Source: Bulleidia sp. zg-1006
Lineage (GTDB): Bacteria > Bacillota_I > Bacilli_A > Erysipelotrichales > Erysipelotrichaceae
Reading direction: 5' to 3'
Assembly (NCBI RefSeq): GCF_016812035.1
Contig: NZ_CP069178.1
Location: forward strand, 558,001 to 622,000
Length of the DNA stretch: 64,000 nt
Shown here: positions 32,865 through 60,196 of the stretch, in pieces
How the letters are laid out: each line of letters begins with the position of its first letter
Position numbering within the stretch: position 1 is the stretch's first letter
Notes under the pieces: generated by a model
Seen by the model: the letters and a program-made list of their open reading frames with translations, nothing else
What the model was told of the DNA's origin: nothing
The model's database searches: none
Translations under genes and position numbers: made by a program

Positions 32865-33878
32865 ATGGAAGATCGCTTAGTAACAGCAGAGCGTTTGGCT
32901 ATGGAGCAGGAAGAAGAAAGTCTTCGTCCAACCGGCCTTAATGATTACATTGGTCAAGATCGCTTAAAAGAAAATTTACGAATCTATATTCAAGCCGCCT
33001 TGGAAAGAGAAGAATCTTTAGATCATGTGCTTTTGTATGGTCCACCAGGTTTGGGTAAAACAACCTTGGCTCATATCTTAGCCAATGAAATGCATTCTAA
33101 AATTAAAGTGACTAGTGGTCCTAGTATTGCAAAGGCGGGTGATTTAGCTTCTATTCTATCGGTTTTAAAGCCGGGGGATGTCTTATTTATTGATGAAATA
33201 CATCGTTTACCAAAAGTGGTGGAAGAAGTCCTTTATCCCGCTATGGAAGATTTTGTATTGGATGTAACGATTGGTGGAGATAGTGGTTCAGCCCGCAGTT
33301 TACGCTTGGATTTACCACCGTTCACATTGGTTGGAGCAACCACACGGGCAGGAGATTTAAGTTCACCATTGCGGGATCGTTTTGGTATTACTTCTAAGCT
33401 GGAATATTACAGCCAAGACCAATTAGCTAAGATTGTGGCGCGTACAGCTAGAGTGTTGGATACCTCAATTGAAGATCAAGCGGTTATCGAAATCGCAAAA
33501 CGCTCACGGGGAACTCCTCGTATTGCAAATCGTCTTTTAAGAAGAATTCGTGATTTTGCTCAAGTCTTAAATCATGGCTATTTAAGTTATGAAGTCGCTA
33601 GGGATGCTTTACAACGCCTTCATGTGGATGATTTGGGCTTAGATGAAGTGGATATTCGTTATTTAAAGGGTATTATCGAACGTTTCCATGGTGGTCCTGT
33701 TGGCTTAGACGCCTTGGCTAATGCTATTAGTGAGGAAACCACCACTCTTGAAGATGTGTATGAACCTTATTTAATTCAAATTGGTTTTGTAAATCGAACT
33801 TCCAGAGGTCGTATGGTTACCGAAAAAGCTTATAAACATTTACATATTCGTCAACAAGGGAGCTTGTTTGATATATGA
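32865..33878 (+). CDS. ruvB: Holliday junction DNA helicase subunit RuvB
   Basis: 337-residue AAA+ motor for branch migration. Walker A is GPPGLGKT (59-66), Walker [10 protein letters not shown], sensor 1 VGATTRAG and arginine finger PLRDRFG; the C-terminal winged helix ends [24 protein letters not shown] precedes the ATG. It overlaps the next gene by four bases (ATGA). Confidence 0.96.
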
Positions 33879-34141
33879 GTAAGAAAGAGGAAAAGTGGTA
33901 TTTGTTGTCGATGAAACTACGCTATTTATTTGCGAGTTTCTTTAGCTTTGTGCTTGCCTTCTCACTATTTGCATTATTGATTTGGTTTCTTGAATTGTTT
34001 ATTTCTTTTGGCCCATGGCTTAATCTTTTCTTAGCTATTTTTGGGTTAATATTAAGTGCTTATCTTTGTCCGAGAATTTTAAGAATTCCAATGATTAAAA
34101 ACTGGCTAAACTATGATTTAAACCAAAATGTACATTTGTAA
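33875..34141 (+). CDS. Small membrane protein downstream of ruvB, 3' end altered by insertion
   Basis: 88 residues with two hydrophobic segments (about 15-40 and 46-66). No family recognised. It is coupled to ruvB by ATGA overlap. Its last codons run into the IS end that borders the island: the current tail is Gln-Asn-Val-His-Leu. The 17-bp repeat at the far border of the island continues Asn-Gln-Arg-stop in this frame, so the ancestral protein probably had 85 residues. The change is only at the last few residues and may be harmless. Confidence 0.72.
34111..34127 (+). repeat. 17-bp direct repeat, left copy
   Basis: CTATGATTTAAACCAAA occurs here, inside the end of the small membrane gene, and again at 38064-38080. 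The two copies bracket the island and identify the chromosomal target. Confidence 0.85.
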
Positions 34142-34195
34142 ATGATGTGATACCAAAAACAAAAATAAATATCCCATATATGTTAATCTATGATT
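34128..34195 (+). repeat. 68-bp direct repeat (IS end), left copy
   Basis: This stretch is repeated at 38004-38071 with three mismatches and no gaps. It begins ATGTACATTTGTAAATG and ends TTAATCTATGATT. It is the end of the IS remnant that follows. Confidence 0.9.
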
Positions 34196-34219
34196 GGAGG
34201 CTAGTTCCAATCATAGATT
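34185..34219. terminator. Stem-loop at the 3' end of the IS transposase
   Basis: AATCTATGATTGGA and TCCAATCATAGATT form a perfect 14-bp stem with a seven-base loop. It overlaps the transposase stop codon and may also end the ruvA-ruvB transcript. Its left arm lies in the 68-bp repeat. Confidence 0.7.
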
Positions 34220-34572
34220 TCGCTTTTCAATAGGACTAAGCCAATTTAAAGTCTGCATTGGAAGCCTATTAGATTTATACAAATATCTTTTTATTTGAAG
34301 TTTTAGATTATCGTAACTATAGAAAGATAAACATTTATAAAATCTTTCATTATCATTCCTTAAAATGAGTAAATTCAAATCCGTTATCTATTTGTATGAT
34401 TTCGGGCTGATATCCAAAATAATTGGTAGCCATACCTTTAAAATATCCAAGCTTTCTTAATACTCTAAATAAAGAACAGGGAATATCCATTTCTATAAGT
34501 TTTAGCGGCATGATATCTTGTATCTAAAGTATGTGGCAAATATCTTTGGGCTTTTGGTGTAATTGTATTCAT
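34211..34572 (-). pseudogene. Transposase pseudogene (deletion derivative)
   Basis: From an ATG at 34572 with GGAAGGA upstream the minus strand reads MNTITPKAQRYLPHTLDTRY, then HAAKTYRNGYSL, and stops early. After a frame change, RVLRKLGYFKGMATNYFGYQ and PEIIQIDNGFEFTHFKE follow, then after another gap NDNERFYKCLSFYSYDNL and a tail ending SPIEKRNL-stop. Order and wording match the N-terminus, the DNG-E part of the rve catalytic core and the C-terminus of a transposase of roughly 330 residues, with two or more internal deletions. It cannot be active. Confidence 0.78.
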
Positions 34573-34697
34573 AGAGAGTATCCTTCCTTCTTTTAAATTT
34601 TTGGTTAATTAAATTATATAGGATATCTCTCTGTTTTTCTTTTATTTGGTCTCACTTCCATTATAACGCTACATAGGTGATAATGTTCAATTCGTTA

Positions 34698-34725
34698 TTG
34701 AAATTCGGGAAATTTTTGTTATACT
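34698..34725 (+). promoter_or_regulatory. Promoter of the RiPP operon
   Basis: TTGAAA (34698-34703) and TATACT (34720-34725) are spaced by 16 bases. Transcription would begin near 34732, about 30 bases before the precursor ATG. It lies just inside the island, 25 bases from the IS remnant end. Confidence 0.78.
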
Positions 34726-34763: not shown

Positions 34764-34859
34764 ATGGTTGTTTTAAAAAAGGGCGAAGTTGTAAAAGTCC
34801 ACTGCTATTCTATATTTGTTTGTGGACCATGCTCGCATTTAGGTGGGTGCAGAGGATAA
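34764..34859 (+). CDS. Cys-rich RiPP precursor peptide
   Basis: 31 residues. A lysine-rich start, MVVLKKGEVVKVH, acts as a short leader, followed by the likely core CYSIFVCGPCSHLGGCRG. Cysteines are at 14, 20, 23 and 29, spaced C-x5-C-x2-C-x5-C. AAAGGAGG lies seven bases before the ATG, the strongest ribosome site in the island. A radical SAM/SPASM enzyme and an ABC exporter follow. This arrangement is that of sactipeptide or ranthipeptide loci, where the enzyme links Cys sulfur to backbone or side-chain carbons. I know no described peptide with this sequence, but cannot search. Confidence 0.78.
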   Translation: MVVLKKGEVVKVHCYSIFVCGPCSHLGGCRG

Positions 34860-34888
34860 CAAACAACCAGGGACTCCTGGTTGTTTGT
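34859..34888 (+). promoter_or_regulatory. Stem-loop between precursor and maturase genes
   Basis: ACAAACAACCAGG and CCTGGTTGTTTGT form a perfect 13-bp stem with loop GACT. It starts on the last base of the precursor stop codon and ends six bases before the maturase ribosome site. No T run follows, so it is more likely an mRNA-stability or processing element, or a weak attenuator, which would raise the ratio of peptide to enzyme. Confidence 0.8.
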
Positions 34889-34905
34889 ATATAGGGAGGA
34901 AATAT

Positions 34906-36249
34906 ATGAAATTTTCGAAATATCAAATAGCTACTAGAATTAATGATAAATATATACTATTTAATACCTATAATTCCGCAATAATTGAATTAAATAAACA
35001 GACATATGATAAATATCAACTAGCAAAGAAAACTAATGACTGCACTCTTTTTGATGAGCAAGAAATTGAAATTTTAACGAACGAAAATTTCATTGTAAGC
35101 GAAGATGAGGAAGTTACTAGAGAAAAAGAAATTGCAGATACATATTTTAAGTCAAAGATAAGTAATGGAGCTAGTGTAAAAATTGATATAGGCATTACTA
35201 ATAAATGTAATTTTCATTGTAGCTACTGCTTTGAAAATGGAAACCGAGATACCTATCAAAACACGATGGATGAAGTTAAATTTGAAAAATTATTTTTACA
35301 GTTAAAAGAATATGTAAATAATTGTTTAGATAACGAAATTAAAAATGTGGAAATAGTGTGGTATGGTGGTGAACCATCTCTGGAACTTGAAAGGATTATA
35401 GAAATAAATAAATACTTTTCAAATTATAGCAAAACAAGAGGATTTACCTATTCAAATATAATTATCACTAATGGTTTCTCCATATCTAAAAAATTTTTAA
35501 GTCAATTAAAAGAACAAAATATACAATATATCCAAATAACATTAGATGGTTTAAGAGATTATCACAATGCTAGAAGAAATATCGATAATAAAACTGATTC
35601 ATTTTCAATAATTTTAGAAAATATAAAAAAGTTAATAGAATTTCAAACGGAAGTTGTTATCAGAATTAATATTGATAAAAATAATTCATCAAATATTTTA
35701 AAATTAATTAATTTCTTATATAAATATTTTAATCATGACTATATAGGAAAATATTTATTTATAGCATTAGGAAGAGTTTTTGGATCAATTAGTAGTTACA
35801 CACATGAAGAATATGCTGATATATATTCCAATATTTTTAAAAAAGCAAATAAATTAGGATTTATTAAAGAATTTATAGACTGTGGAGTTGTAACTGCTTT
35901 TTGTACTGCAGAAACCGATAATTTAAACGTTACAATAGATTATGATGGAAATATATATAAATGTTGGAATGATATCTTTAATAAGAATAATATGATTGGG
36001 AATATCTATACTAGAGATAGATTAGAAAGTCCAATAAAAAAAATTTATATGGATGATTTATCCCTAGAAAATGTTAATAATGGAAATTGCCTAAAATGTA
36101 AAATGATTAAATTTTGTGGAGGACTATGTCCATATACAAGATTGTTAATTAAAAAAGGGATTGAAGATAATATTTATACGAATAATGTATGTGAAAAAAT
36201 TGCAAGAAAGCACCTAATTGCTAATCTAAAAGGATATTTATCAAGATGA
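34906..36249 (+). CDS. Radical SAM/SPASM peptide maturase
   Basis: 447 residues. The N-terminal 85 residues (YILFNTYNSAIIELN) form the small recognition-type domain common in Clostridia-type peptide maturases. The SAM cluster motif is Cys101-x3-Cys105-x2-Cys108 (CNFHCSYC), with GGEP at 154-157 and QITLDG near 210. The SPASM region has Cys 326, 333, 353, 395, 398, 404, 408 and 429, enough for two auxiliary 4Fe-4S clusters. Start at ATG 34906 is set by AGGGAGGA; a GTG at 34843 in frame would run inside the precursor gene. It overlaps the exporter by ATGA. Codon use (AGA, ATA) is unlike the surrounding core genes. Confidence 0.9.
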   Translation: MKFSKYQIATRINDKYILFNTYNSAIIELNKQTYDKYQLAKKTNDCTLFDEQEIEILTNENFIVSEDEEVTREKEIADTYFKSKISNGASVKIDIGITNKCNFHCSYCFENGNRDTYQNTMDEVKFEKLFLQLKEYVNNCLDNEIKNVEIVWYGGEPSLELERIIEINKYFSNYSKTRGFTYSNIIITNGFSISKKFLSQLKEQNIQYIQITLDGLRDYHNARRNIDNKTDSFSIILENIKKLIEFQTEVVIRINIDKNNSSNILKLINFLYKYFNHDYIGKYLFIALGRVFGSISSYTHEEYADIYSNIFKKANKLGFIKEFIDCGVVTAFCTAETDNLNVTIDYDGNIYKCWNDIFNKNNMIGNIYTRDRLESPIKKIYMDDLSLENVNNGNCLKCKMIKFCGGLCPYTRLLIKKGIEDNIYTNNVCEKIARKHLIANLKGYLSR

Positions 36250-37988
36250 ATTTAAAAGAAAAAATTAAATTATTTAATATTCTGATAAATCCTTGGTATA
36301 AGTATGCAAAAAAATTAATTATTTTATGTTTTTTTGGAACATGTATTTGTTTGCCTTTATCAGAATATTTTGCAGTCATAATTCCAGAAAAAGTATTAGT
36401 AGCTTTAGAAACTGAAAGTACTTTTATGGAAATATTTATAATAGCAATAAAATATGCATTATTATCGTTAACATTAAGTTTATGTAATAGAGGAATTCAT
36501 GATTTTTATTTTGATTGGAAAAGTAATGCGGTTATTGAAAAAATTGAAAGAGATATCTTTAATAATGTATTACAAATAGATCAATCTAATTTTAATAATC
36601 CCAATTATTTAGATGCATATAAATTAACCACTGAAGAGTTTTCTAAAAAATCTGTAGAAGCCTTTGAAAATGTATTTAAATGTATAAGTAGCATAATAAG
36701 AATATTTTTATTTGGTGCTGTCATAACCTTAAAAGGAACCTATATTATTTTTTTGGTAATTCTATTTTCATTATTTGCCACATCAGCACAAATAGTATGG
36801 AGTAAAGTTTCCGCAAAGAAAAATATTGATGGAGTACGTCACAGAAGAAAGATTGATTATATTAGAAGGTTATTTTTTGATCCTGAAGTAGTTGAAGATA
36901 TAAAAATATCCAGAATATATAGTAAATTAGAAAGCATATTTAATGATGGATATAAAAATACTATTAAAATACATAAAAAATATGCAAAAAGCGTTTTTGG
37001 AATAGATTCTCTTATTGTAATTTCAAAAATTGGAATAAATTTTATAATTCCTCTATATATAGCTCAGAATATTATAAATAAAGAACTGTTTAATATTTCA
37101 ATTTTTTCAACATTATTAATATCATCAGATGCGTTAAAATCTACATTAAATGAATTTGGGTGGTGGAGTGCAAAAATTTCTCAAGAAATTAGCTATGCAC
37201 AACAAGTAAAGAACTTTTTTGAATACGACTCAAGCATTGAAAATAATAATGAAGGATATCAATTAATAGAAGGCAGTATAGAAGTTCAAATGGAGAAAAT
37301 TAGTTTTAAATATCCGGGAAGTGGTTTTAAAGTTAATATTGATAAGTTTGAAGTGAATAAAGGTGAAAAGGTAGCGATAGTAGGAGATAATGGTGCAGGA
37401 AAGTCAACATTAATCAAACTTTTATTACGACTATATGATTTAAATGCTGGATATGTATATATAAACAATAAAAATATAAAAGAATATTCTACTCAAACAA
37501 TTAGAAAGTCTATCGGATATGTATCACAAAAACCGATGATATACGCAATAAGTATTAAAGACTATATAGATATAAATGGAGATGAAGAAAATAATGTAAA
37601 TCAACTATTAGATTTTTTCTGCTTTAAAGAAAGAACAGAAAAAATATTGACTAAAGAATTTGAAGAAGATGGCATTGTATTATCAGAGGGAAATAAGCAA
37701 ATATTAGCATTAGCTAGAGTTTTAAAGAAGAATTATGGTCTTCTTTTACTTGATGAACCAAGCTCGGCATTGGATCCAATAAAAGAAGAAAAAATGATTA
37801 GTCTGATAGAAAACATCTCAACAACGACAATTATTATAGCTCATAGACTATCGGCAATAAAAAATTTAGATAAGATTTTCGTGATGGAAAATGGGAAAAT
37901 TGTTGAAAGTGGAAAACATCAAGAACTGATAAATAAAAAAGGAAAATATTACCAAATGTATAGTGTACAATCAAAAAGATATCAATAA
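36246..37988 (+). CDS. ABC exporter of the RiPP cluster (fused permease and ATPase)
   Basis: 580 residues: membrane domain (about 20-330, segments near 23-47, 62-82, 150-182 and 255-292) then ATPase with Walker A GDNGAGKST (380-388), signature Leu-Ser-Glu-Gly-Asn (479-483) in place of LSGGQ, Walker B LLLLDEPSSALD and H-loop IIIAHRLSAI. There is no N-terminal C39 peptidase domain, so any leader cleavage must be done by another enzyme or not at all. It overlaps the maturase by four bases. It most likely exports the modified peptide and could give immunity. Confidence 0.86.
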   Translation: MNLKEKIKLFNILINPWYKYAKKLIILCFFGTCICLPLSEYFAVIIPEKVLVALETESTFMEIFIIAIKYALLSLTLSLCNRGIHDFYFDWKSNAVIEKIERDIFNNVLQIDQSNFNNPNYLDAYKLTTEEFSKKSVEAFENVFKCISSIIRIFLFGAVITLKGTYIIFLVILFSLFATSAQIVWSKVSAKKNIDGVRHRRKIDYIRRLFFDPEVVEDIKISRIYSKLESIFNDGYKNTIKIHKKYAKSVFGIDSLIVISKIGINFIIPLYIAQNIINKELFNISIFSTLLISSDALKSTLNEFGWWSAKISQEISYAQQVKNFFEYDSSIENNNEGYQLIEGSIEVQMEKISFKYPGSGFKVNIDKFEVNKGEKVAIVGDNGAGKSTLIKLLLRLYDLNAGYVYINNKNIKEYSTQTIRKSIGYVSQKPMIYAISIKDYIDINGDEENNVNQLLDFFCFKERTEKILTKEFEEDGIVLSEGNKQILALARVLKKNYGLLLLDEPSSALDPIKEEKMISLIENISTTTIIIAHRLSAIKNLDKIFVMENGKIVESGKHQELINKKGKYYQMYSVQSKRYQ

Positions 37989-38003: not shown

Positions 38004-38071
38004 ATGTACATTTGTAAATGATGTGATACCAAAAACGAAAAAAAATATCCTATATATGTTAATCTATGATT
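38004..38071 (+). repeat. 68-bp direct repeat (solo IS end), right copy
   Basis: Sixty-five of 68 positions equal 34128-34195. Here only the IS end remains; the rest of a second copy is missing and chromosomal sequence resumes. Confidence 0.9.
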
Positions 38072-38080
38072 TAAACCAAA
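38064..38080 (+). repeat. 17-bp direct repeat, right copy
   Basis: Identical to 34111-34127. It overlaps the last eight bases of the 68-bp repeat (CTATGATT), so an eight-base microhomology between IS end and target may have made this junction. Confidence 0.85.
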
Positions 38081-38114: not shown

Positions 38115-38139
38115 ACTTTTAAGGCTGTGATAGGAAATA

Positions 38140-38326
38140 AGGAAAGGTGCTTGTTATAGAGAGTCTTTGATTGCTGGAAAAAGACACAAGTCTTTGCGTC
38201 GTCGTCCTTGAGCTATTTTTCTGAACTCTTAGTAAGAAAAATCGGTGCAATCCGTTATCGAAGACAAGAAGTAAATAAGGTGGTACCACGTTTGTTTTTG
38301 ACGTCCTTTGTGCAAAGGACGTTTTT
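38140..38326 (+). promoter_or_regulatory. T-box riboswitch of valS
   Basis: A leader of about 190 bases carries the AGAGA-type bulge early (near 38158), GUC repeats around 38200 that may hold the valine specifier, and the T-box AAGGTGGTACCACG at 38277-38290. A terminator follows: ACGTCCTTT (38301-38309), loop GTGC, AAAGGACGT and Ts. Uncharged tRNA-Val would stabilise the antiterminator and permit valS expression. The exact specifier codon was not proven by folding. Confidence 0.92.
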
Positions 38327-59944: not shown

Positions 59945-59984
59945 AGATTGAAAACCTTGTTTGGTTTTGTTAAAATACTCCAAA

Positions 59985-60196
59985 AGCGTTGAAGAGAAGA
60001 AGTACCATTTGGAAGAATTGTAGAGAGAGCTTGTTCGGTGAAAAAGCTTGTTTGGAAGAATTGGGAATACATCTTGGAGCTATTTATCTCAAAAGGTAAA
60101 TCGTTAGCCTGCGTTAAAGGTAGTTAAGGGCATAGATAAATCTATGAACTAAGGTGGTACCGCGCAATAGCGTCCTTAGAATGAAGGGCGCTTTTT
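59985..60196 (+). promoter_or_regulatory. T-box riboswitch of tyrS
   Basis: A leader of about 210 bases carries a specifier loop with TAC (60068-60070, in GAATACATC), the T-box AAGGTGGTACCGCG at 60151-60164, and a terminator AGCGTCCTT/AAGGGCGCT followed by Ts (60169-60196). TAC is a tyrosine codon, so the leader should sense uncharged tRNA-Tyr. Confidence 0.93.

Follow-up and report, generated by a model that had tools for sequence, protein, structure and literature searches.

An intact, recently imported RiPP cassette in a gut-type bacterium probably makes, crosslinks, and exports a 31-residue cysteine-rich peptide

Besides thioethers, SPASM enzymes can yield C-C, ether, and cyclopropane products. 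SCIFF enzymes use Thr as acceptor, and host proteases serve many RiPPs. For PapB, the acceptor needs to be Asp or Glu (PMC9413430), and for NxxcB (NxxC type) it is Asn (PMC13361665). Known sactipeptides have leader lengths of 8-29 residues (PMC8326336). Apart from SuiB, every known RRE recognition sequence is bound as a beta-strand (PMC12710340). According to the SkfB paper (PMC6231123), Aux I of CteB has an open site that is occupied by a Cys from the substrate. The locus described here is an intact RiPP cassette of this known kind, recently imported and with an unseen core. As a kind of system it is not categorically new; this peptide and this divergent maturase branch are new members of that kind. 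With its three genes, a gut-type bacterium probably makes, crosslinks, and exports a 31-residue Cys-rich peptide. The window is the whole stretch of DNA that was analysed, 64 kb in length. A preliminary description had placed three genes at 34764-37988, the peptide gene having a strong ribosome site and the other two being joined by an ATGA overlap, and these coordinates and signals were confirmed. The features of the cassette are as follows.

34698-34725, plus strand: sigma-70-type promoter TTGAAA-16-TATACT with TG ahead of the -10 (consensus match only, 10/12)
34764-34859, plus strand: precursor peptide, 31 aa, four Cys, sequence MVVLKKGEVVKVHCYSIFVCGPCSHLGGCRG
34859-34888, plus strand: perfect hairpin of 12-13 bp that starts 2 nt past the peptide stop codon and has no U run
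34906-36249, plus strand: radical SAM/SPASM maturase, 447 aa, with CxxxCxxC at 101/105/108
36246-37988, plus strand: ABC exporter, permease and ATPase in one chain, 580 aa, with an ATGA overlap with the maturase stop at 36246

The four Cys of the peptide are at residues 14, 20, 23, and 29 (spacings 6, 3, 6). Residues 1-13 (MVVLKKGEVVKVH) are proposed as the leader, and the core (CYSIFVCGPCSHLGGCRG) is proposed to begin at Cys14; it contains Tyr, Phe, Val, Ile, and His and no Asp, Glu, Asn, or Thr. A leader of 13 residues had at first been regarded as unusually short, a view that is not upheld, since it lies within the lengths cited above for known sactipeptides and is therefore ordinary. The calculated monoisotopic mass of the unmodified, reduced peptide with Met1 is 3304.65, and each crosslink would lower it by 2.016. 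A near-perfect ribosome site (AAAGGAGG) lies 6 nt 5' of the ATG; across the 64-kb window, no other ATG ORF of 18-60 aa has a strong one. By chance, 1.85 such ORFs would be expected per 64 kb, and 0.03 with at least four Cys (first-order Markov sequence). The precursor had no family match in NCBIfam or Pfam profile searches, found nothing in plasmids when used alone as query, and occurs once in the source genome, with no second copy there. The hairpin downstream has an energy of -20.7 kcal/mol (z -5.1), and no shuffled sequence was equally stable; hairpins are found at the equivalent place in three other loci (L046, L047, and L087, the last from Beduini massiliensis). A coupled terminator downstream of the peptide was considered and rejected for want of a U run in the hairpin; the element is called attenuating or stabilising. 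It probably sets the ratio of peptide to enzyme.

The maturase matched Radical_SAM in the Pfam profile search, and its SPASM domain has the full set of seven Cys (333/353/395/398/404/408/429). These and the CxxxCxxC motif are kept in 49-50 of the 50 members of the family alignment. Scores against the models of described families were all far below the cut-offs, at 174 bits for TIGR04463 (cut-off 525), 172.1 for CefB NF038107 (600), 159.8 for Clo7bot TIGR04334 (600), 97.6 for PapB NF047865 (340), and 59.2 for SCIFF TIGR03974 (425). The structure was modelled using AlphaFold2 (five models), with input rows from plasmid and phage records left out, which gave a mean pLDDT of 88 and a pTM of 0.88. 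In the model, strands 7-12, 15-20, and 25-29 and then helices 31-43, 51-59, and 66-89 precede the radical SAM barrel, and the pLDDT of region 7-89 is mostly 88-96. On this model, the N-terminus (about 1-89) is an RRE of beta-beta-beta-alpha-alpha-alpha order and a candidate leader-binding domain. The best full-length structural match was CteB (5why; Z 27.4, 390 residues, model 4-446), followed by TigE (8vpo; Z 23.1, 400 residues); the two align from maturase residue 4 or 1 and thus cover the N-terminal domain, and anSME matched the rest of the maturase without it. Following the usual SPASM assignment, Aux I would be held by three family-wide Cys (Cys333, Cys353, Cys408) and Aux II by four (Cys395, Cys398, Cys404, Cys429). 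Cys326, which is non-conserved and private to this maturase, might be a fourth Aux I ligand. A viperin identity suggested by a PADLOC pVip match was rejected, as the radical SAM core alone is in common and there is no viperin context.

The ABC protein has six TM-like segments, and its Walker A, signature (LSEGNKQ), Walker B, and H-loop are intact; export of the product by this protein would be the natural reading. No C39 peptidase domain was found in it by Pfam and NCBIfam profile searches, and within the cassette there is neither a leader peptidase nor a recognisable immunity gene, so that "complete", as the unit had been called, was too strong. Leader removal must fall to something encoded outside the cassette; as many RiPPs rely on host proteases, a leader peptidase is not a required feature. 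Between ORF88 and valS, no regulator-like ORF is present.

The collections searched held no close homologue of the maturase, the best having 30-32% identity. Among 316 genomes from the order, 395 from the class, and 392 from the phylum, no maturase exceeded 32% identity, and single-sequence scans of genome contigs and viral contigs gave nothing confirmed. Distant relatives were therefore used for the question of the precursor. About 10 of these have upstream short Cys peptides with an N-terminal motif resembling that of the window peptide. Upstream of the relatives' maturases, 16 short Cys ORFs preceded by a ribosome site start with M-x-hydrophobic-hydrophobic-x-polar on the coding strand, against 0 ORFs with the same motif and Cys on the opposite strand; the motif was derived from the same data, and the counts are therefore supporting, not independent, evidence. 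Annotated Clo7bot peptides are among these ORFs (MKFIKKPARKFEEGYC.. and MKYIVKPTGYRHGFC..), as are 20-aa candidates from two Sarcina plasmids (MKLIGKSGLEVDSICGVQIG and MIILNEKKPLVLIDKCPARA), and Clo7bot relatives often have several peptides of variable size per maturase. The pattern also holds for the window peptide (MVVLKKGEVVKVHC..). Short Cys peptides at the equivalent place are, for example, MKFIKKP.. in Clo7bot, MKLIGKSGLEVDSICGVQIG in Sarcina, and MTVYSTGIKDLLRICDASGGCNFSCGVYRV in Beduini. In a tree of 100 proteins, the window maturase is a weak sister (SH-aLRT 83) to the Beduini massiliensis enzyme and lies on a long, isolated end branch of 1.38 changes per site, and the exporters of the two loci were alignable across the ATPase domain only. 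Because the Beduini locus repeats the order of peptide, hairpin, maturase, and overlapping ABC gene, the layout is taken as conserved and the core sequence not. As for the short frame that the preliminary description expected upstream of close maturase homologues, the distant homologues, the only ones found, have one at the same place and in the same size class, with different cores. The assignment as a RiPP operon, also made in the preliminary description, is well supported by the domain model, the positional Cys peptides of the relatives, and the exporter motifs.

Several further loci were noted during these searches. Two plasmids of Sarcina sp. JB2 have unannotated 20-codon ORFs (L046:2353-2415 in NZ_CP051762.1, MKLIGKSGLEVDSICGVQIG; L047:3844-3906 in NZ_CP051759.1, MIILNEKKPLVLIDKCPARA), both of which have a ribosome site; after each come a U-run hairpin, a radical SAM/SPASM gene, and a transporter. 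These ORFs may encode RiPP precursors whose cores would be no longer than 5-6 residues. Besides a maturase, an unverified 2.8-kb record named "Enterococcus phage IME_EF3" (L209, PQ520162.1) encodes a 46-aa Cys-rich peptide (MKWLTEETKIEKRGVITC..) and an IS200-type transposase; it resembles mobile DNA of bacteria more than a phage. Phage carriage is not claimed from PQ520162 (maturase 32% identity), as the record is unverified and partial. The source genome also has a second radical SAM/SPASM maturase (L230:5200-8555, G000:C1:1502199-1505554) with frame breaks and a missing start region, adjoining an ABC ATPase and two permease genes; this is a decayed peptide-modification locus.

The cassette is a recent import and was horizontally acquired. 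No other 3 kb of the 64-kb window is as AT-rich (24.5% GC vs a median of 36%). In the nearest relative compared (G091, RuvB 94% identical), the upstream small gene is followed by the valS T-box and valS without the cassette, and the 17-bp duplication listed below is absent in the empty site (L238). The features of the insertion site are as follows.

34111-34127, no strand: left copy of the 17-bp duplication (CTATGATTTAAACCAAA), at the insertion junction
34128-34195, no strand: left copy of a 68-bp direct repeat, of which the first ~32-40 bases are an insertion-sequence end
34196-34665, minus strand: decayed, internally deleted insertion sequence with a transposase remnant (weak rve match)
38004-38071, no strand: right copy of the 68-bp direct repeat, 96% identity, insertion-sequence-end repeat
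38064-38080, no strand: right copy of the 17-bp duplication, from which the sequence carries on to the upstream gene's native end and the T-box region of valS

The 17-bp sequence is the tail of the upstream small gene and flanks both sides of the 3,936-bp insert, in keeping with insertion by a transposition-type event that duplicated the target; an alternative origin would be recombination between insertion-sequence ends. The insertion-sequence end of the 68-bp repeat is found in three other places in the source genome. A sibling of the remnant is at G000:C1:1112154-1112660; this copy and the one at window 34128-34665 are both shrunken and have the end GTACATTTGTnnATGATGTGA in common, and ends standing alone are found at G000:C1:1512145 and 1513813. 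Just inside the left repeat, a perfect inverted repeat (AATCTATGATTGGA / TCCAATCATAGATT, 34186-34219) holds the start of the duplicated target and may record rearrangement during insertion. The small membrane-protein gene 3' of ruvB (33875-34141) has lost its native end ..DLNQR through the insertion and has NVHL instead. T-box leaders (Rfam RF00230) at 38118-38311, ahead of valS, and at 59980-60180 are ordinary.

The favoured reading, which is considered likely, is that of a horizontally acquired RiPP cassette whose leader is bound by the RRE, whose core is crosslinked by thioethers, and whose product is exported. The peptide would be made in excess over the enzyme through its strong ribosome site and the hairpin ahead of the maturase. 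Residues 1-13 would dock as a beta-strand on the N-terminal RRE of the maturase, hydrogens of the core would be abstracted by the radical SAM centre, and Cys thiolates, held at the three-Cys Aux I cluster, would attack the core; as many as four thioether crosslinks would result, with alpha-carbons as the likeliest points of attachment (sactionine type). Export of the product would fall to the ABC protein, and the leader would be cut off by a protease encoded elsewhere. For the product, we infer a role in competition or signalling.

As the core has no Asp, Glu, Asn, or Thr, the Calpha thioether is the most economical guess for the crosslink, and a better guess than ranthionine. Its main rival is a wholly different radical product, with the peptide still the substrate, in which a C-C bond, ether, cyclopropane, or epimer is formed, with the Cys engaged in disulfides or in metal binding. 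The core offers Tyr, Phe, Val, Ile, and His, which could react in this way, and TigE, the second full-length structural match, belongs to a system making cyclopropane-bearing residues. For that system, compare PMC9062424; SPASM chemistry in general is diverse (PMC13361665). Such a product is nevertheless unlikely, as the family-wide Cys-rich precursors and the CteB-like three-Cys Aux I suit thioethers better. Non-alpha thioethers, the ranthipeptide alternative named in the preliminary description, are suggested by CteB, the closest solved enzyme, whose SCIFF substrate now counts among the ranthipeptides (PMC8326336). We regard this outcome as quite unlikely, since the known acceptors (Asp/Glu, Asn, Thr) are all missing from the core, which disfavours known ranthipeptide chemistry, and the maturase is far under the PapB and SCIFF cut-offs (97.6 vs 340 and 59.2 vs 425).

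On another reading, the cassette could be decaying cargo whose product is no longer made, given that it adjoins a decayed insertion sequence and that the second maturase locus of the genome is broken. This is very unlikely, as the three ORFs are intact, no catalytic or cluster residue is missing, and promoter and ribosome site are complete. Alternatively, the short ORF could be a regulatory leader peptide and not a precursor, for instance a cysteine-sensing attenuator of the maturase-exporter pair; its many Cys codons, the strong hairpin 2 nt later, and the maturase ribosome site after that would be in keeping with this. The hairpin has no U run, however, and the Cys codons are scattered; the peptides of relatives vary in size, have the N-terminal motif in common, and are often several per maturase, and an RRE-bearing maturase requires a peptide substrate, for which there is no other candidate ORF. 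A regulatory leader peptide is therefore very improbable. On a more speculative and doubtful proposal, the maturase would be the head of an undescribed branch on ultra-short precursors (20-31 aa, with a 13-15-residue beta-strand leader; window, Beduini, and Sarcina plasmids), crosslinking acceptors outside the known ranthipeptide set.

The cassette is a minimal, mobile, self-contained peptide-modifying unit with one 31-residue substrate, one enzyme, and one exporter, and is small enough to be expressed whole as a compact test system. The four-Cys core without Asp, Glu, Asn, or Thr is a clean substrate for the determinants of alpha vs non-alpha thioethers. Because the precursor matches no tested model and the maturase is far below the cut-offs, rule mining based on precursor families probably misses the cassette.

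Among known systems, those of the PapB type have Cys-X3-Asp/Glu motifs, whereas the window peptide has no Asp or Glu after Cys14, and Cys-every-fifth (Cef) peptides have a Cys at every fifth residue in place of the 6, 3, 6 spacings. Streptosactin and other streptococcal RaS-RiPPs are alike in their compact precursor with a radical SAM enzyme and in being from Bacillota, but have an Rgg/SHP regulator, and none is in or beside the window cassette. The thermocellin system (CteB/CteA, a SCIFF ranthipeptide) has the same RRE, radical SAM, and SPASM domains and a predicted three-Cys Aux I; the structural identity of CteB to the window maturase is 17%, and SCIFF precursors have six Cys in forty-five residues, compared with four Cys and no Thr in the window core. 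The uncharacterised Beduini massiliensis locus (L087) differs in its three-Cys core, a non-alignable ABC membrane part, and a gap of 133 nt between peptide and maturase, and is alike in its 30-aa Cys peptide, which has its own ribosome site, its hairpin, its maturase (30% identity), and its overlapping ABC gene. Clo7bot systems (TIGR04333 peptides, TIGR04334 maturase CtpM; e.g., Paraclostridium plasmid NZ_CP079738.1) have up to seven annotated peptides, compared with one 31-aa peptide here, and the window peptide had no match to TIGR04333 at E <= 10, where true Clo7bot peptides score 36-52 bits. The two are alike in a short leader of the form M-x-aromatic/aliphatic-I-x-K, a Cys-rich core, a homologous maturase (31% identity), and a downstream ABC exporter.
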